Origin: a virus
Length of the DNA: 29,211 nt
Reading direction: 5' to 3' (one strand)
Virus record (IMG/VR): IMGVR_UViG_3300042509_000710
Location: 1-29,211 of that record
How positions within the stretch are numbered: position 1 is the stretch's first letter; each line of letters opens with the position of its first letter. The translations under genes were made by a program, and so were the position numbers. The notes beneath the pieces are model-generated. The model had not been told where the DNA came from. It made no database searches and was given only the letters and a program-made list of their open reading frames with translations. Of this stretch, positions 1 through 9,653 are shown piece after piece.

Positions 1-826
1 CCTCGCCATATTCCGCAATGATCTGCTCATAGATTTGCTTGTCCGTGTCCTCGACCGTTCGAGAGTCAATGTTCTCCGTGTGCCAGAAGTTGCGCTTGGC
101 GTGGAAACATTCGTAGAAGTAGCCTTGATTGCGCCGGGGGTTACTAAACGCGAACCAGTACCGGTCTAAGATCGGTTCCGTAAAGAAGCCCGCACCGACC
201 GACCAGATGGCGTCCGGGATACCGCTGGCTTCGTCGAAGATCAGCATCATGCCGTCGTGGTTGTGAACACCCGCATAGCTGTCGGGGTTCTCTTCCGACC
301 ACAGCTTACCCTCGGCTGCCCAGTAGCGCGTACCTTTCTTCAAGTCGCGCTCGACCAGCTCGGTCAGCCACTTCGCTGGGATTAGCTTTGTTGCGCTGAT
401 CTCCCACCAGTGGCTGTTGATGATCATCGCTTGCCACTTAGTCAACTCACCCCATGTAACCGACCGGAGCTGGGCTTCTGAGTTGGCGGAGACGATCACA
501 CTCGACCCGATGCGGGTCGACAGCATCCACAAGACGAGCCAGCTAACGAGGGCGGACTTACCGATGCCTCGACCGGACGCGACTGCGGTGCGCAGGGCGT
601 CCATGTCGACCTGCCCTTTGTTCGTCTTGATGTGCGTGGCGATCCTGCGCAGTATCTTGCGCTGCCAGGTGCGCGGGCCTTTGAACTTAGCGAGCGGTGT
701 GTTGGGTTGCCCCCACGGAAAGGCGAACAGCACGAACGCCTCGGGGTCATCTGCGAGCTGTGGCGCCCACAGTCGTGTCATTAAGAGCTGCTCGCCCTCG
801 GCGTCATAAATGGGTTGCTGGGCCAT
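1..826 (-). CDS. Terminase large subunit, partial (C-terminal part lies outside the window)
   Basis: Phage DNA-packaging motor: the ATPase that drives DNA into the prohead and, through a C-terminal nuclease, cuts the concatemer. Reading the reverse strand gives 275 codons from an ATG at 826. A Walker A motif GRGIGKS lies at about residues 85-91 and a Walker B segment LIFDEAS at about 193-199, and the spacing and the WGELTKW and FSNPRRNQG segments fit terminase ATPase domains. The nuclease domain is beyond position 1. The start codon overlaps the stop of the upstream gene (TAATG), so the two are probably translationally coupled. The family call is firm; the exact terminase subfamily is not determined. 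Confidence 0.93.
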   Translation of the reverse strand, partial: MAQQPIYDAEGEQLLMTRLWAPQLADDPEAFVLFAFPWGQPNTPLAKFKGPRTWQRKILRRIATHIKTNKGQVDMDALRTAVASGRGIGKSALVSWLVLWMLSTRIGSSVIVSANSEAQLRSVTWGELTKWQAMIINSHWWEISATKLIPAKWLTELVERDLKKGTRYWAAEGKLWSEENPDSYAGVHNHDGMMLIFDEASGIPDAIWSVGAGFFTEPILDRYWFAFSNPRRNQGYFYECFHAKRNFWHTENIDSRTVEDTDKQIYEQIIAEYGE

Positions 827-1512
827 TATTTACCTTGCAGTCGCTTCAAGTCTTGCAGGTGGTCGGAGCCTATAAAGTACACGCCTTTAGGCTGCGACAG
901 CAGCCAGCGTTGGCGGTGTTCGTTAGCTTTGTTGGCCATCTGACGTGCGGGCGTGTCGTCAGCATCCCACATCTCTCGCTCACCCCGGTCTAAGAACGCC
1001 GCTACGTTTTCTTTTGACGCCGGGCGTTGGGCTTCTTGCAAAAACTCCGGCCCCATGTTTTGCAGAAAAGTCGCCAAGGTTTTGCTGTCAAACTTGCGGT
1101 CTTTGAAATACCCAAACTTGTCTTGGTTTTCCAAGATGCTGTCAAATATCGTCTTGTCGCTAGGCAGCACGTCTTTTTGCTTGTTTACGTCCGTGTTGGT
1201 AAACAGCGTAAACAGAAATTCTGACGGGTACCCTTTGACTGCTTTAGCGGCTGCGTCGTCCCACGACCCTTTGTACGCTACGCCCGGCAGCTTGTCGCCG
1301 CCCGTGCCTTCGTAGTACGCGCCGTGTTGCGCAGCTTCTGCTTTGATGCGAGCAGGCAGTGTCATGGGCTCACCATGCACTTGTCCGACAAAGGTTACGC
1401 CAGGGCGCGGCGAAAAGGTTTGTAGCGGCGTGGTGGGTGCGGTGTACGCGTCAGCGCCGACTGCTTGTCGCAGTACGTTAACCGGCGTGGGCGCGAGAGC
1501 GTTCTGTGGCAT
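826..1512 (-). CDS. Putative TIKI/TraB/ChaN-superfamily protein encoded between the two terminase genes
   Basis: 228 residues. What is seen: a GQVH tetrad at 43-46 after a hydrophobic strand (VTFV), a glutamate in YYEGTG at residue 68, and a second tetrad GSDH at 215-218 in the strand-like VYFIGSDHL close to the C terminus. Known pattern: TIKI-superfamily enzymes (TraB/PrgY, EreA, ChaN, the toxin PMT domain) carry a GxxH near the N terminus, a following Glu, and a C-terminal GxxH. ARQMANKANEHRQRWL just before the last strand resembles the helix that precedes it in TraB proteins. Inferred role: a metal-dependent hydrolase or haem-type binder; substrate unknown. It overlaps the small terminase gene by 35 bp and the large by 1 bp, so it is co-expressed with packaging. 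It has no signal peptide. It could instead be an unrelated packaging accessory protein. Confidence 0.6.
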   Translation of the reverse strand: MPQNALAPTPVNVLRQAVGADAYTAPTTPLQTFSPRPGVTFVGQVHGEPMTLPARIKAEAAQHGAYYEGTGGDKLPGVAYKGSWDDAAAKAVKGYPSEFLFTLFTNTDVNKQKDVLPSDKTIFDSILENQDKFGYFKDRKFDSKTLATFLQNMGPEFLQEAQRPASKENVAAFLDRGEREMWDADDTPARQMANKANEHRQRWLLSQPKGVYFIGSDHLQDLKRLQGK

Positions 1513-2025: not shown

Positions 2026-2141
2026 GTTAGTAAGCACTCACTCTTTTTGTTGTCAGCCTGATAAGTTAGTAAGCACTCACTAACTTTTGCCAGGTTAGTA
2101 AGCACTAACTAACTTGCCCAGGTTAGTAAGCACTAACTAAC
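2026..2141. repeat. Four copies of a palindromic 20-mer (operator, partition-type or packaging-site repeats)
   Basis: Copies start at 2026, 2065, 2094 and 2122. The last two are identical, GTTAGTAAGCACTAACTAAC. The second differs by one base (A to C at position 14), and the first has a degraded right half. Each copy has inverted 6-bp arms, GTTAGT and ACTAAC, around an 8-bp centre, as expected for a dimeric DNA-binding protein. Start-to-start spacings are 39, 29 and 28 bp. Three copies are preceded by CAG or CCAG. Candidates for the ligand are the small terminase (packaging site), a repressor or a replication initiator; the sequence does not decide. Confidence 0.85.
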
Positions 2142-2154
2142 CGATGTTTGCACA

Positions 2155-2504
2155 TGTGGACCATGCAAATTGTCCACACAAACCGGTGGCCGCGCGGACG
2201 TAAAAGTGTTAACAAAAAAGAATCGAATCTGTGGATAACTTTTTGCCGGACAAAATGTTGCCAAAAAGCTATGTGGACAATGTGGACAATCTACAGAGGC
2301 AAAAAAAATTGGTGGCGTGCGCGTGTGCGCACACGTGACCGTACAATCCATTAGCAGTATGATAACTATTTTAACTTCCTAAGGTTTGATAGATTTTATT
2401 GTCCACATTGTCCACAAATAGCCAAAAGCCGCACTGTCCCTCGAATGTGGCGTGGACAATCGCGCCGATTTTCATAGTCCACACTTTGACCCACGTAGTC
2501 CACA
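2155..2504. other. DnaA-box array, putative replication origin
   Basis: One perfect E. coli-type DnaA box, TTATCCACA, reads on the minus strand at 2230-2238. TTGTCCACA, a DnaA box form common in high-GC bacteria, occurs at 2170-2178, 2399-2407 and 2408-2416 on the plus strand and at 2272-2280 and 2281-2289 on the minus strand. Weaker relatives lie at 2155-2163, 2451-2459, 2475-2483 and 2496-2504. Two boxes abut head-to-tail at 2272-2289 and two more at 2399-2416 in the opposite orientation, enclosing an AT-rich segment (about 2341-2400) that could be the unwinding element. The phage encodes its own primase-helicase and polymerase but no recognised initiator here, so host DnaA or a protein mimicking it could start replication. 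The array could alternatively serve as iterons for a phage initiator or titrate DnaA. Confidence 0.7.
2322..2335. repeat. 14-bp perfect palindrome CGTGTGCGCACACG
   Basis: Perfect dyad of alternating pyrimidine and purine in the middle of the DnaA-box array, between the tandem minus-strand boxes and the AT-rich core. It is suited to binding a dimeric protein. No T-tract follows, so it is not a terminator. Confidence 0.7.
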
Positions 2505-2625: not shown

Positions 2626-2820
2626 ATGACACACTTAGCCGACCGAATTTATGCAGCAAGCAAGGTAAGTAAAGCCGGCGCAGATTTATGGGAACTATTC
2701 AATGTCCTCGCCGATGACGTCGACGGCGCCGAGCTACTTGGCCGCTTCGATGCATACGTCGACAATTTAGACTCAGAAGCGCAAGCGTTATATCGCGAAT
2801 TGAAAGGGGCACGCAAATGA
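2626..2820 (+). CDS. Small acidic hypothetical early protein (64 aa)
   Basis: Unrecognised. The start is taken as ATG 2626 because AAAGGGG lies 5-6 bases upstream; an in-frame TTG at 2608 would add six residues and is less likely. The product begins MTHLADRIYAASK, is predicted helical throughout, and is acidic in the centre (ADDVDGAELL). It is the first gene of the rightward early operon. Its last bases overlap the next start (ATGA). Confidence 0.7.
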   Translation: MTHLADRIYAASKVSKAGADLWELFNVLADDVDGAELLGRFDAYVDNLDSEAQALYRELKGARK

Positions 2821-2903
2821 AACAAACAATTTTCGAAATGTTATTAGGTCTTATCGCTTTTCTGTACCTGTGGGCTTTTCTTTTCGTTCTAATGTCATTT
2901 TAA
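2817..2903 (+). CDS. Tiny single-pass membrane peptide (28 aa)
   Basis: Reads MKQTIFEMLLGLIAFLYLWA and continues FLFVLMSF, so nearly all of it is one transmembrane helix. The start overlaps the preceding stop as ATGA, and GAAAGGGGCACGCAA upstream provides a ribosome site. Overlap, ribosome site and hydrophobic pattern together suggest a real gene. Peptides of this kind in early phage operons can act on host membrane proteins, but no function can be assigned. Confidence 0.6.
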   Translation: MKQTIFEMLLGLIAFLYLWAFLFVLMSF

Positions 2904-2928
2904 AAACTTTTTTGAAAGTGATCCGACC

Positions 2929-3612
2929 ATGAAAACCGTACACTTGACGCTGAAATCAAATAACGTAAAAACCGGCCCGATACCTGTTTCGACAACGTCG
3001 GCCCTATCGTGCCCGAGCGCGTGCCCGCTCAAAAGCGGCGGGTGTTATGCCGACGGCGGCCCGCTCGCGCTCCACTGGCGCGCGGTGACGGCCGGCGAGC
3101 GCGGCTTAGATTGGCAAAGCTTCTGCGACGCTATAGCTGCGCTACCGGCCGGCCAATTGTGGCGCCACAATCAGGCCGGCGATTTACCAGGCCTTGACAA
3201 TTCGATTAATCCGGCCGCGCTCGAAATGCTAGTGGCGGCCAATGCCGGCCGCCGTGGCTTTACTTACACTCACAAGCCGGCGACGGCCGACAATCTCGCG
3301 CAGATTAAAGCGGCCAATGCGGCCGGCTTTACGATCAATCTATCGGCCAATGATTTAACGCACGCCGACGCGCTCGCCGATACCGGCGCCGGTCCCGTCG
3401 TCACAATTCTGCCGATTGACGCCGGCGCTAAAAACCGCACGCCGGCCGGCCGCTTGGTCGTCACTTGCCCCGCGCAATTGCGTGACGATGTTTCGTGCGC
3501 GGATTGTCAATTGTGCGCGCGCTCGGATCGGCCGACGATCGTCGGATTCTTGGCCCACGGATCCGGCGCCAAAAAGGCGGAAAAAGTATTTTTCATGCAA
3601 AAGGCGGCCTAA
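2929..3612 (+). CDS. Cysteine-rich phage protein (DUF7227-like), possible metal or Fe-S protein
   Basis: 227 residues. The N terminus MKTVHLTLKSNNVKTGPIPVS leads to a cysteine cluster C28, C32, C39 in CPSACPLKSGGCYA. A second cluster C180, C190, C193, C196 lies near the end, with H210 beyond. The arrangement resembles phage proteins I recall under the name DUF7227, and the CxxxCxxxxxxCY element resembles the cysteine motif of radical-SAM-like phage Gp37/Gp68 proteins (DUF5131); both are from memory. Seven invariant-looking cysteines suggest zinc or an Fe-S cluster. The gene is unusually dense in GGCC (about 20 by hand count). Function unknown. Confidence 0.7.
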   Translation: MKTVHLTLKSNNVKTGPIPVSTTSALSCPSACPLKSGGCYADGGPLALHWRAVTAGERGLDWQSFCDAIAALPAGQLWRHNQAGDLPGLDNSINPAALEMLVAANAGRRGFTYTHKPATADNLAQIKAANAAGFTINLSANDLTHADALADTGAGPVVTILPIDAGAKNRTPAGRLVVTCPAQLRDDVSCADCQLCARSDRPTIVGFLAHGSGAKKAEKVFFMQKAA

Positions 3613-4784: not shown

Positions 4785-4810
4785 ACCCGCCTTTCGGCGG
4801 GTTTTTCTTT
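4785..4810 (+). terminator. Intrinsic terminator of the left early operon
   Basis: Stem ACCCGCC (4785-4791), loop TTTC, stem GGCGGGT (4796-4802), then TTTTCTTT. It is oriented for plus-strand transcription and lies exactly between the end of the early operon and the convergent end of the primase gene. Confidence 0.9.
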
Positions 4811-7127
4811 ACTTGACAAGCCGAACGGCGGCCGGAACCGGTACCTGTTCGACCATGCGTCTGAGCTCTGACTTCGGCGTGTCGGCGAGCTCAGGCGCGC
4901 AGAATACGTGCTTTTTCGCGTCATACTCGCGCGACTTTAAGCGCCCCATGTCGACCCAGCCCGCCTCTTTAAGCGCATGTAAGAGCGCCGCTTGCGGTAT
5001 CTTCACGCCAGACGGCGCGCCATGCACAATACGCTCACAAAGCGCGTAGAACGGGCTCGCCACCACCCCTGTCGAGAACTCACCCAAGCGCGCGCGCATC
5101 ATATCGACTAGGTACGATTCAGCGGTAGAGCGCCCTTGCTCGACCATAATCATTTTCGCTTCGGTCAACGGCGGCGCAGCGCCTGGGTTGAATCGTGACA
5201 CGTCACGCTGATAGAGCCATCCTGCGGCCGTGGCAAGCCCGCCCGCCTGATACCAGTCCCATATCGCCTGCGCGTCACGCTCGGCCATTCTCGGCGCGTC
5301 TGAGTAGGTCACAAACCATCGCCGATCATCCGATGGCAGGCTAAGCGGCACGCGCTCATTCGAGAACGCTAAAACGAAAATGCGGTTCAGCGCTTGGTAC
5401 GGGTGCAGACCCTTGCGGTTCACCTGCAGGAACTCGGGCGGCGCTGCAATAATGGGCTTTAGATGGTTCTCGAGCGCGCGTCTATCTTTTGCTTCCGCTT
5501 GGCGCAGCTCTTCGAAGACCATCACCTCGGACTCGAGCGCATAACCCCACTGCGACATAATCTCTTCGTTGCGCACAATCGACACGTTCGCGAGCGACTC
5601 GCCACCAATGCCCCATAGCAGCGGTTGCCAGAGGGTATCCTTACCCGAGCCTGGGTTACCGATATGCAGCACCGCGTGATTAATCTTTTTGTTCGGGTTC
5701 TGCAGCTTGTAGGCCATCACGTTTAGCACATGCTCGCGCTCGGACACGTCCGGAATCATCCGCTCGACATGCTCGAGCCAGACGCGCGGGTTACCGGTGG
5801 TTGCCACCGGCCGGTGATCAATCCAGCGATTACCGTACACCTGCCCCTCACGCGCCACTTGGACGCTCTCGCCTGCCGCGTAGGTGATACCGGCCAACGT
5901 CAAGGCGCCCAGCTTCTGGCGGTTCTCATCGAAACAGACGGACGCCTCAATGCGGCGCTTGGTCTTACTCGGATGAATCGAGAAACAGGTCACATGCCGA
6001 TAGAGCGCATTGAAGGTACCGCGCGCGATCTCGCGGCGGTCGTGCAGGTCGAAATAAGCGTCTTCGGACTCGATATAGGCGTAGCGGGTATACCAGTCGG
6101 CCTTCTCGACTCGGTCGCGCTGTTTTTTCTCAACATCGGCGATTATCTCAGCCGCGGTATCGGGAAATGCTTCGGTCGGGGTCAACTGCGACAGGGTATG
6201 GCTCATCGTCTGCGCCAGCAGCTCGTCACGCAGTCCAGGCGCGTGCTTGGGGCCGCCATTGGCCGCCACCCAATCGAGGAACACGTTCGAGTCTAAGTCG
6301 ATGCAGTGCGAGTGCAGGCAGCAGTACGAGCGCGTAGCAGGGCTGTAGCGCCCTTCCGGGTTGCCATCGGTATGCTCGGCACTGTTCGGGCAGATGACGC
6401 CTGCCCACCCTGCAGGATTCGGTAGCGACAGCAACACCCCCTGCCCCGAGAGCCACGCCATCACGTCATCGGCCCCATCATCCGACAAGCGGATCGGGCG
6501 CACGCCGAGCGACTCGGCAGGCGCAGGTGTCACGCCAAGCGCGTCGCAAATAGCCTCGAGGGTGTACTCGCGCTCGGGATGAAACTCGACCAGCTGTGCA
6601 GCGAACCGGTCGCGCCCGGGCTTTAGATTGATCGACCCCGGCAGACGGAAGTTGCGCACGGCATTGCAGGCGCCGGGGTCGGTGTAGCCTGCGTCAGCGA
6701 TCGCTTTGATGGCTGCAGCGTACTCGGCCTTCGTTGGCTGATCGTCTAGGCTAAACGCATAGCCCCACTGGAACGATCCAGCGGACGTCTCGATGATCCA
6801 TGTCGGCGGCAGCTGCGGCGTCTTCGGCGCCTTGATCGGGTCGCCTACGTCGTCTAACACCATGACTAGGACGTACTCGCAATTCGCGGCAGACGCGCCC
6901 GGCTTACCATCGACGAACCGCTCGACGATAAACGACGCCGTGTTGCCGTACCATGCCTGATCGGGCTTGATCTTGCGCGCGTCGGGTAGCGCAGCAGGCC
7001 ATGTGCATTTGATCGCACCATCGGCATGGAACTGCAGCTCACCGTCTTTCAGTTGTGGCTTTTGGCGCACAATCAGCGCCGTCTCGCCTTCAGGCGCGAG
7101 TTTTGTGTAATAATCAAGAAATTCCAA
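4809..7127 (-). CDS. Bifunctional primase-helicase (RepB/AEP-type primase domain plus D5/DUF5906-type helicase)
   Basis: 772 residues; acts at the replication fork to synthesise primers and unwind DNA. The N-terminal third resembles archaeo-eukaryotic primases: LVMVLDDVGDP at about 90-97 carries acidic residues, and PPTWIIETSAGSFQWGYAF and AVRNFRLPGSINLK follow as in RepB-type primases. A probable zinc site lies at about 247-275 (ICPNSAEHT, YCCLHSHC). The C-terminal half has Walker A GNPGSGKDT at about 490, an acidic VMVFEEL segment and the helicase segment SDDRRWFVTYSD, typical of D5/SF3-related phage helicases. The start is TTG at 7127, supported by GGAGG six bases upstream; no ATG is nearby. 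It is the last gene of the replication operon. Confidence 0.88.
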   Translation of the reverse strand: MEFLDYYTKLAPEGETALIVRQKPQLKDGELQFHADGAIKCTWPAALPDARKIKPDQAWYGNTASFIVERFVDGKPGASAANCEYVLVMVLDDVGDPIKAPKTPQLPPTWIIETSAGSFQWGYAFSLDDQPTKAEYAAAIKAIADAGYTDPGACNAVRNFRLPGSINLKPGRDRFAAQLVEFHPEREYTLEAICDALGVTPAPAESLGVRPIRLSDDGADDVMAWLSGQGVLLSLPNPAGWAGVICPNSAEHTDGNPEGRYSPATRSYCCLHSHCIDLDSNVFLDWVAANGGPKHAPGLRDELLAQTMSHTLSQLTPTEAFPDTAAEIIADVEKKQRDRVEKADWYTRYAYIESEDAYFDLHDRREIARGTFNALYRHVTCFSIHPSKTKRRIEASVCFDENRQKLGALTLAGITYAAGESVQVAREGQVYGNRWIDHRPVATTGNPRVWLEHVERMIPDVSEREHVLNVMAYKLQNPNKKINHAVLHIGNPGSGKDTLWQPLLWGIGGESLANVSIVRNEEIMSQWGYALESEVMVFEELRQAEAKDRRALENHLKPIIAAPPEFLQVNRKGLHPYQALNRIFVLAFSNERVPLSLPSDDRRWFVTYSDAPRMAERDAQAIWDWYQAGGLATAAGWLYQRDVSRFNPGAAPPLTEAKMIMVEQGRSTAESYLVDMMRARLGEFSTGVVASPFYALCERIVHGAPSGVKIPQAALLHALKEAGWVDMGRLKSREYDAKKHVFCAPELADTPKSELRRMVEQVPVPAAVRLVK

Positions 7128-7176: not shown

Positions 7177-9159
7177 TCCGTACCGCTCCATTACTTTAAC
7201 GCCTGCCTTCAGGGGCAACCCTTGCGCCCATGCAGGCGCCGTACACATGACCTCGACTAACCGCTGCTTGGATGCTTCAGGGTCAGCGGCCTCGAGAACG
7301 ATCTCATCATGAACGTGTAGGACTGTTTCGGGAAGTTGGCGTAAAGAATGCCGCAGCAAGTCGTGCGCGATTGCCTGCGTTATGTTCTCACAGGCGAGTC
7401 CCCTCCACAAGCGCGCTCTCGGCCATTCCTTCGCATCCGCTGCAGGCTTCCATGCCGCCTTGACGTAGGTGATCTCGTCACCCTCGAACTTAGCAAATGG
7501 ATAGCATAGGATGCGCCCTGACGGCAACGCGTACCACAGGTGCTGACCGTCATACATGTAGGTGATGCGACCGACCGGGAACTCGCGCCCTGGGTTGCGT
7601 AGCGCACGCGTGTACGCCTCTTCGAGCTTGCTCCAGTAGCGCACCGCCCACGGATTAGCGCGACGCCATGCGTCAACGATCCGGCGGGAGTCGGACTCGG
7701 GCAGCACGATGCCGTAATTGCGGCCCATCGCCGAGAACGCGCCGACCGAGCCACCGAAGCCGAGCGAGAGAATCGCGACCTTGCCGATCTGGCGCTCCTC
7801 GGACTCGTCGCCGATGTCCTCCTCGGGCATACGGTAGATGCCTGCGGCTTCGCGCTTATAAATGTCGCGCCCCTGTCGGAAGACGTCCAGCACCGACTCG
7901 GCCTGCGGGTCAGCGGACGCCCACGGCGTGACGCGTGCCTCGATGGCTGACCAGTCGGCGACAACGAAGGAGTGTCCGGGCGCAGGGATCAATGCGGGCC
8001 GGAGCATTCCCCGGAGAACATCTGTAATGCGTTTTCCAAATCTTGGGGTGACGCTGTGGCCTCGCACCATAGCGTGGCGTACTGCGTCGGGTTCTTTGGC
8101 GCACTTACGAGTGAAGTTGTGAACCTGGGCGCCGTAGGAGCTGGCGCGGCCAGTGGCTGATCCACCAGCGAAAACGAATGCGCCCCGTACGCGATGGTCT
8201 TCAACATCCGCGAGAGCTGCAAGGCGGCTGAACTTTGCGACCGAAGACGCCCAGAGGTCGTCCGCACATTGAATGACGTCCGCAACATTGGCCGGAATCT
8301 CATCGGGGTTTTCCTCTGCAAAGTTAAGCAAGTTAGCGCGAACGGCCTTATCGATACTGTACTTCTTTTCGCCGTCTTTGTAGACCACCATCATCTCTTT
8401 CGCCTGCGGCCCGACGCGCTCCAGCACCCACTCACGCATGCGCGGACTGCGCACGGACTTGATCTCACCCTCAGTCACTTCGGCGACAATCCGCTCGATG
8501 TCGTCGGTTTCCTGCGACGCGTAGCTGATCGCGGCTTGCGAAAGCGGCAGGTCAAGCAACACGCCACGATCGTTAATGCGCTCATTGACGTGGTAATCGA
8601 GCAGCTCGTCGTCTGATAGGTCGCGCATGGCCTTACTGATGGCGCGCATGGCACGGACGTCCTGCTCGCAGTACGCGATCATCTCCGCCATCAAGGCCGG
8701 GTCATTATTGAAGGTGCCGTCAGCGCGAGGTACTGATAGAAGTCTAATAAGTTGCGATCCTCGATGATCTTTTCGCATAACACTGCTAATGGCGCGTCCG
8801 ACGTCTTCAAGGCTGCCCGGTAGGCAGTTAGCACGCGCTTGAGTAGCGGTGCAGTAGAACTGCTCAAGCGCAGGCCGGGGTACGCCAAAATCTTGGCATA
8901 AGATGTTCCAAAAGATCTGACGATCAAAACCGGCGTTATGAAACCGCAGTTGTTTACCAGCGCGAATGTGTTCTGATACTGACTCAGGGAATGGTTGATC
9001 TGGCGTCCATGTCTGTACATCGTCGTCTCCAATAGCATAGGAAAAGCACAGAATGGTTGTGCTTGCGTCTAAGCTGTAGTTGTACCCGCCGCGCGACGGA
9101 AGGTCGCACCGGCTTCTCGTTTCGAAATCACCCCAAAGTATTGTCACGCCAGCCACCAT
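7171..9159 (-). CDS. Family A DNA polymerase with 3'-5' exonuclease domain
   Basis: About 662 residues; the phage replicative polymerase. The exonuclease domain shows the DFET motif at residues 11-14, HNAGFDRQIF as ExoII and YCEQDVRAM as ExoIII. The polymerase domain shows motif A DWSAIEARV at about 402, motif B RQIGKVAILSLGFGG at about 457-471 and motif C HVHDEI at about 617. Length and order fit phage family A enzymes without a 5' nuclease. The start is uncertain: ATG 9159 is used here. GTG 9147 would overlap the endonuclease stop as GTGA, and TTG 9165 is also open; none has a clear ribosome site. The upstream homing endonuclease may have displaced the original leader. Confidence 0.95.
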   Translation of the reverse strand: MVAGVTILWGDFETRSRCDLPSRGGYNYSLDASTTILCFSYAIGDDDVQTWTPDQPFPESVSEHIRAGKQLRFHNAGFDRQIFWNILCQDFGVPRPALEQFYCTATQARANCLPGSLEDVGRAISSVMRKDHRGSQLIRLLSVPRADGTFNNDPALMAEMIAYCEQDVRAMRAISKAMRDLSDDELLDYHVNERINDRGVLLDLPLSQAAISYASQETDDIERIVAEVTEGEIKSVRSPRMREWVLERVGPQAKEMMVVYKDGEKKYSIDKAVRANLLNFAEENPDEIPANVADVIQCADDLWASSVAKFSRLAALADVEDHRVRGAFVFAGGSATGRASSYGAQVHNFTRKCAKEPDAVRHAMVRGHSVTPRFGKRITDVLRGMLRPALIPAPGHSFVVADWSAIEARVTPWASADPQAESVLDVFRQGRDIYKREAAGIYRMPEEDIGDESEERQIGKVAILSLGFGGSVGAFSAMGRNYGIVLPESDSRRIVDAWRRANPWAVRYWSKLEEAYTRALRNPGREFPVGRITYMYDGQHLWYALPSGRILCYPFAKFEGDEITYVKAAWKPAADAKEWPRARLWRGLACENITQAIAHDLLRHSLRQLPETVLHVHDEIVLEAADPEASKQRLVEVMCTAPAWAQGLPLKAGVKVMERYGK

Positions 9160-9653
9160 ACGCAACCGTAGGCGGGGCGATTTTTGGCTAATGCGTGGCT
9201 TATGCCGCCTGTTTGTTTGCCGCGCATGGCTATCTCAGCTTCTATCAAACTATTGAATGAATAGACTAAGCCTGTGGCTATTGATATGCCTTTTACTTTT
9301 TTCTCTGGCTTTACTCTTCGCCCCGCAGCTAACGCGTGCTGTACGTTTTCTTTGCGGCTAACCCACTCTAAGTTTTCAACGCGGTTGTCTGTTCGGATAA
9401 AATTTTTATGGTTGACTTCGGTATAACCTTTTGGGTTACGCAAAAATGCCTTGGCCACCAATTGATGAATTGTGCAAACTTTGCGCGTGCGTTTACCGCC
9501 TTTATACAAATGCACGCACAAATACCCGTGCGTCATTCTGTTTGGCTTAAGGTAATCGTGCGTCGTCCTAGACCAAACATGGCCTTCGGTTGATACCTCA
9601 TACCGGCCTTCATACCCGGCTATGGGCTTCCACTGTACGTTTAGATTTTTCAT
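9144..9653 (-). CDS. HNH homing endonuclease with NUMOD4 and NUMOD1-type modules
   Basis: 169 residues. Residues about 7-30 (WKPIAGYEGRYEVSTEGHVWS) form a NUMOD4 module. Residues about 62-105 form the HNH fold, with IHQLVAKAF, the catalytic-type NHKNFIRTDNR and NLEWVSRKENVQHA. The C-terminal part (GISIATGLVYSFNSLIEA to GGISHAL) resembles the DNA-binding NUMOD1 repeat. Free-standing endonucleases of this class spread by cutting alleles that lack them and often sit beside polymerase genes, as here. No ribosome site is visible at ATG 9653. It overlaps the polymerase start region by up to 22 bp. Confidence 0.9.
   Translation of the reverse strand: MKNLNVQWKPIAGYEGRYEVSTEGHVWSRTTHDYLKPNRMTHGYLCVHLYKGGKRTRKVCTIHQLVAKAFLRNPKGYTEVNHKNFIRTDNRVENLEWVSRKENVQHALAAGRRVKPEKKVKGISIATGLVYSFNSLIEAEIAMRGKQTGGISHALAKNRPAYGCVWWLA

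Follow-up and report, generated by a model that had tools for sequence, protein, structure and literature searches.

A DnaA box-like array in a phage intergenic region

Which protein reads a cluster of DnaA box-like nonamers in the intergenic DNA of a phage, host DnaA or an initiator of the phage itself? The question is raised by positions 2155–2504 of a 29.2-kb fragment of a freshwater phage, which we analyzed over its full 29,211 nucleotides (the window) and whose longest relatives reach ~37 kb. The initial annotation had described one TTATCCACA, five TTGTCCACA and four one-mismatch sites here, and every one of them is present. They represent six exact and four one-mismatch matches to TTRTCCACA, all in one intergenic region; a count across the record placed 6/6 exact sites inside the array and none outside. 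Within the 677-bp intergenic region (1931–2607), six exact nonamers compare with 0.023 expected (maximum of 2 in 2000 dinucleotide shuffles), and ten nonamers with at most one mismatch compare with 0.48 expected (maximum of 4 in 2000 dinucleotide shuffles).

The TTGTCCACA copies lie at 2170 (+), 2272 (−), 2281 (−), 2399 (+) and 2408 (+), and the one-mismatch nonamers start at 2155, 2451, 2475 and 2496. Extended to ten bases (see below), the single copies read ATGGTCCACA (variant; 2155–2164, minus strand), ATTGTCCACA (2169–2178, plus strand), ATTGTCCACG (variant; 2451–2460, minus strand), ATAGTCCACA (variant; 2474–2483, plus strand) and GTAGTCCACA (variant; 2495–2504, plus strand). The remaining copies form two tandem pairs of ATTGTCCACA, on the minus strand at 2272–2290 with a 9-bp period and on the plus strand at 2398–2416. 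These opposed pairs, correctly noted before as flanking an AT-rich segment, constitute the arms of a perfect 19-bp inverted repeat. Between the arms, an alternating purine-pyrimidine tract can be read from the sequence (2315–2337), followed by an A+T-rich segment (2343–2400; 76% A+T in 2351–2400) that is a candidate unwinding element. The single TTATCCACA is on the minus strand at 2230–2238. A cumulative GC-skew minimum, proposed earlier as a further sign of an origin, does not fall at the array; the curve mostly tracks gene direction. The test is a weak one in a 29-kb phage fragment, and we set GC skew aside as uninformative.

To the left of the array, a small-terminase-like gene and a terminase gene are encoded on the minus strand; in a relative, MW202483, a terminase large subunit is annotated beside the homologue of the small-terminase-like gene. 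An accessory gene (826–1512, minus strand) overlaps the end of the small-terminase-like gene and gave no match in Pfam or PHROGs; some relatives have it at 91–99% identity and others lack it. To the right, short plus-strand genes precede a minus-strand block of primase-helicase (4809–7127), family-A DNA polymerase and HNH genes, continuing with a putative DUF2815-like gene and a DUF2800 nuclease gene; plus-strand nuclease and SNF2 helicase genes follow. The HNH endonuclease gene (9144–9653, minus strand), between the polymerase and DUF2815-like genes, is patchy among relatives. Relatives of the helicase were found on contigs assigned to freshwater MAGs of Rhodoferax, other betaproteobacteria, an actinobacterium and Mucilaginibacter, bins too varied to single out one host.

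The repeat words change in concert among relatives

Five TTGTCCACA and one TTATCCACA, in opposed pairs around an A+T-rich segment, are what one would expect of a true DnaA-dependent, oriC-like origin, at which every nonamer is a host DnaA box and host DnaA is the initiator. We compared the array among relatives from IMG/VR, 80 loci of which were retrieved via the small-terminase-like protein and more via three divergent helicases. About 100 relatives share this array layout with differing words. The repeats belong to a family of 10-mers, AT-N6-CA, in which the ends are fixed, the inner six bases vary and tandem copies follow at a 9-bp period. Recurrent words, as labeled by an automatic rule inside the AT-N6-CA frame, are ATTGTCCACA, ATTGCCCACA, ATAGCCAACA, ATGACTAACA, ATGACCCACA, ATGACGTGCA, ATTGCCTACA and ATTACCCGCA. 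Most copies within one phage have the same core, while the core differs between phages, indicative of concerted change. In complete relatives, exact copies of the main iteron word are restricted to the origin region.

The DnaA box consensus is TTWTNCACA. Phages with near-identical small-terminase and helicase proteins nevertheless carry other words at corresponding array positions; in relatives whose helicases are 95–98% identical, these places hold ATGACGTGCA, ATTGCCGACA and other non-DnaA words, so that the repeats are not conserved as DnaA boxes. Some of these phages, termed B-type below, have mixed words, with ATGACGTGCA occurring together with ATTGCCGACA and ATTGCCTACA. As the core differs between phages even at bases that DnaA boxes require, the relatives do not preserve the array overall as a set of DnaA boxes. 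Judged by their evolution across these sequences, most of the repeats are not DnaA boxes. An oriC-like origin is thus very improbable: one TTATCCACA stays while the other words change, and the words follow a phage protein (see below).

The same comparison bears on the proposal that the phage carries a decoy array, which would titrate host DnaA and upset the timing of host replication. While box-like sites are clustered as such a decoy would require, there are only ~10 of them, and the equivalent arrays of sister phages carry words that would not titrate DnaA. We found no support for this idea and regard it as hardly credible.

A single consensus DnaA box is conserved

One element of the array behaves differently from the iterons. 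TTATCCACA at 2230–2238 is kept in 35/43 relatives of this clade, whatever their iteron word, in a constant context and a single orientation (AGTTATCCACAGATTTG); in the 314 kb of flanking DNA searched, the same nonamer occurs once. In this clade, a conserved consensus DnaA box therefore lies inside the array; in the second clade it is found in 4/48 relatives and is not conserved. On the strength of this conservation, TTATCCACA is likely a real host DnaA box. The earlier suggestion of a DnaA-dependent origin thus holds for this one site, constant while the iterons change, and fails for the remaining repeats.

A phage-encoded DnaA domain IV was considered and rejected, since neither the window nor any of the related IMG/VR phages searched contains PF08299, which was found only in the distant relative MW202483. 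This phage encodes a DnaA domain IV-like protein (5424–5720), bears intergenic repeats ACTACCAA (2700–3010) and has a different helicase wing. In a Rhodoferax MAG, a 3.2-kb stretch at the dnaA gene contains one TTATCCACA and no TTGTCCACA, with the reservation on the host of this phage given above.

The repeat core covaries with the predicted wing of a primase-helicase

The phage protein followed by the repeat words is the primase-helicase. It belongs to the DUF5906 family of SF3/D5 type (PF19263, 43.3 bits at a cut-off of 27.6; NrS-1 structures 6k9c and 6k9e, the latter with an E-value of 7.6e-12), and its helicase core is of the NrS-1/D5/SaPI kind. AlphaFold2 predicts a C-terminal winged helix at residues 668–743 (4899–5126, minus strand; pLDDT of the block ~90), with a strand at 725–730, the wing at 731–738 (KSREYDAK; 4914–4937, minus strand) and another strand at 739–743. 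The helix preceding the wing (712–721) is nearly invariant among the helicases. The constant helix may read what does not vary in the repeats (their AT and CA ends) or the backbone, leaving the variable core to the wing. Foldseek with the isolated domain returned generic winged-helix proteins only, with weak E-values; a Pfam search of the C-terminal domain gave nothing convincing, a sequence search of this domain alone against solved structures gave chance matches only, and no solved origin-binding domain was matched in sequence.

We compared A-type (n = 7) and B-type (n = 5) genomes, which are otherwise 95–98% identical. Only helicase columns 730–732 and 735–737 separate the two types; these 6/772 fully separating columns all fall in the predicted wing, where A-type helicases read RLKSREYDAKK and B-type helicases RINTREHATKK. 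No fully separating column was found in TerS (12 variable columns), TerL (34), the portal-like protein (38), PolA (69), DUF2815 (31) or the neighboring small gene orf22671 (48); genes sampled in only 2–4 genomes per side showed a few single separating columns. Presence or divergence of a whole gene was rejected as the basis of type switching, as no gene of a complete relative followed the repeat type.

Of the 577 columns compared in 91 full-length helicases, 731 is the best for base 7 as well as for the word in full, and 732 is the best for base 8. K or R at 731 is accompanied by C at base 7 in 56/56 cases, S732 by A at base 8 in 80/80, and T732 by G or T at base 8 in 8/11. Independent switches were counted on a tree of helicase residues 1–655, i.e. 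with the winged-helix domain left out. Base 7 changes 21 times on this tree, and among 16 phylogenetically independent pairs with different bases at position 7, 15 agree with the association, none opposes it and one is a tie (p ~6e-5); base 8 alone switches independently just five times, too few for significance. The base-7 rule was first seen in an initial set of 47 loci and then checked on 64 loci fetched later, where it held in 41/41 cases with K/R and in 20/23 with other residues; L145, L157 and L207 break the simple rule. Two contigs from bacterial MAGs also fit. Thus, by covariation, the iteron core tracks wing residues 731, 732 and 736 and their neighbors.

Could wing and iterons merely travel together as a linked recombining block, without contacting each other? 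They lie only ~2.3 kb apart and these phages are mosaic. However, the intervening genes do not co-segregate with the type (0/48 variable columns separating in orf22671), separating columns are limited to the predicted wing, and each main clade shows identical pairings of residue and word. We therefore consider simple linkage most improbable.

A further possibility is that in TTGTCCACA-type phages the helicase and host DnaA both bind the iterons, with DnaA aiding or controlling initiation. TTGTCCACA is one base off the consensus box and is the commonest word (35/102 labeled loci), with occurrences in each main clade. On the other hand, the word is kept or lost along with the wing residues, and the layout is unchanged in phages with non-DnaA words, which renders such dual use unlikely.

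A proposed replication origin with self-loading helicase

Based on these results, we suggest that the phage most likely has its replication origin, or the core of it, at 2155–2504, with iterons for the primase-helicase and one DnaA site; both binding and origin activity are inferred. Iterons of a phage initiator had been the third reading offered initially, and it fits best, given the concerted change to non-DnaA words and their tracking of the primase-helicase wing. Features of an origin served by a self-loading initiator are found here: the helicase has a C-terminal winged helix (an AlphaFold2 prediction), and short, cognate-specific repeats lie beside an A+T-rich segment, their specificity being judged by covariation alone. 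In this lineage, the resemblance between iterons and DnaA boxes would be mostly incidental, resulting from the residue set K731, S732 and D736.

In the proposed mechanism, the C-terminal winged helices would anchor helicase copies at the two iteron clusters of opposite orientation, the A+T-rich segment between the clusters would melt, and helicase rings would load onto the separated strands. Priming and the phage family-A polymerase would then begin synthesis. Host DnaA, bound to the single TTATCCACA (2230–2238), would probably assist opening.

More speculatively, the wing might constitute a readable, fast-switching recognition code, in which a few residues repeatedly reset the six-base core of all repeats alongside a fixed DnaA box. 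Rivals that target the origin, or incompatibility during co-infection, may drive the switching, and one recurrent state might mimic a DnaA box and bind host DnaA as well. We advance this idea tentatively, as possible but on balance doubtful.

A DnaA box-like array can be misread from one genome and was resolved here through comparison. The relatives form a naturally occurring set of paired initiator and origin variants, with origin bases predictable from single wing residues. How initiator specificity evolves, and what lies behind its frequent switching in phages, could be tested directly with short oligonucleotides and a domain of ~80 residues.

Comparison with known initiators

Structural matches of the full-length helicase model include SaPI entries 7pds and 7ola. 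SaPI Rep reads its iterons with its C-terminal domain, and SaPI Rep and SCCmec Cch2 share with the system proposed here an SF3-like self-loading helicase, short origin iterons, a C-terminal reading domain and an origin downstream of the helicase gene (PMC7581432). Unlike SaPI Rep, the present case concerns a tailed-phage replicon with the origin ~2.3 kb from the helicase and small genes between them; moreover, the array includes a consensus DnaA box, and the correspondence of residues and bases could be followed across many types. P4 α is likewise a primase-helicase with a C-terminal winged helix (a predicted one in the present helicase), which in P4 α binds origin repeats according to PMC4234260, where Ziegelin and Lanka 1995 and Yeo et al. 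2002 are cited; the P4 α primase, in contrast, is of the Toprim type (PMC4234260). Among solved structures, the helicase core is closest to the NrS-1 primase-helicase (6k9c, 6k9e, 6lrb), the sequence match spanning profile positions 463–664 only; NrS-1, however, has two copies of an 8-nt recognition site and no iteron array (PMC7102993).

The DNA-binding domain of PLE RepA covaries with its iterons and has been swapped more than once, as described together with the ICP1 nuclease Odn (PMC8263062). RepA differs in its N-terminal RepA_N domain, in its ~30-bp semi-palindromic iterons and in having two types only, and no second, free-standing, Odn-like copy of the wing domain was found in the fetched loci of the present family. 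In the iteron-related domain of geminivirus Rep, a few initiator residues vary with short iterons and potential residue-base pairs were derived by comparison, in work cited in PMC12548392; these rolling-circle initiators belong to plant viruses and are unrelated. Initiator helicases that act at iteron origins are thus known, as is initiator-origin covariation in PLE RepA (PMC8263062) and, from work cited in PMC12548392, in geminivirus Rep. As far as the searched literature shows, which leaves out most subscription papers and is no proof of novelty, three aspects are new: the phage family concerned, a residue-to-base pattern that resides in the wing and has switched independently many times, and the mimicry of DnaA boxes.

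Other elements of the intergenic region

In L035, L051 and L065, the intergenic region contains a palindrome, GTGAAACATGTTTCAC, that resembles parS half-sites in reversed order. To the left of the array in the window (2026–2141), four palindromic repeats GTTAGTNAGTGCTNACTAAC (0.01 expected) are kept in most relatives regardless of iteron type; an unrelated block replaces this region in L019, L020, L021, L023, L026 and L027. A regulator might use the GTTAGTNAGTGCTNACTAAC repeats as operators at the late (terminase) operon. Immediately upstream of the small-terminase-like gene (1938–2022) is a strongly conserved C-run/G-run; on the minus strand, TCACGTCCACGGAGGT and an A/T tract come after it. 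This stretch is a possible promoter or packaging element.
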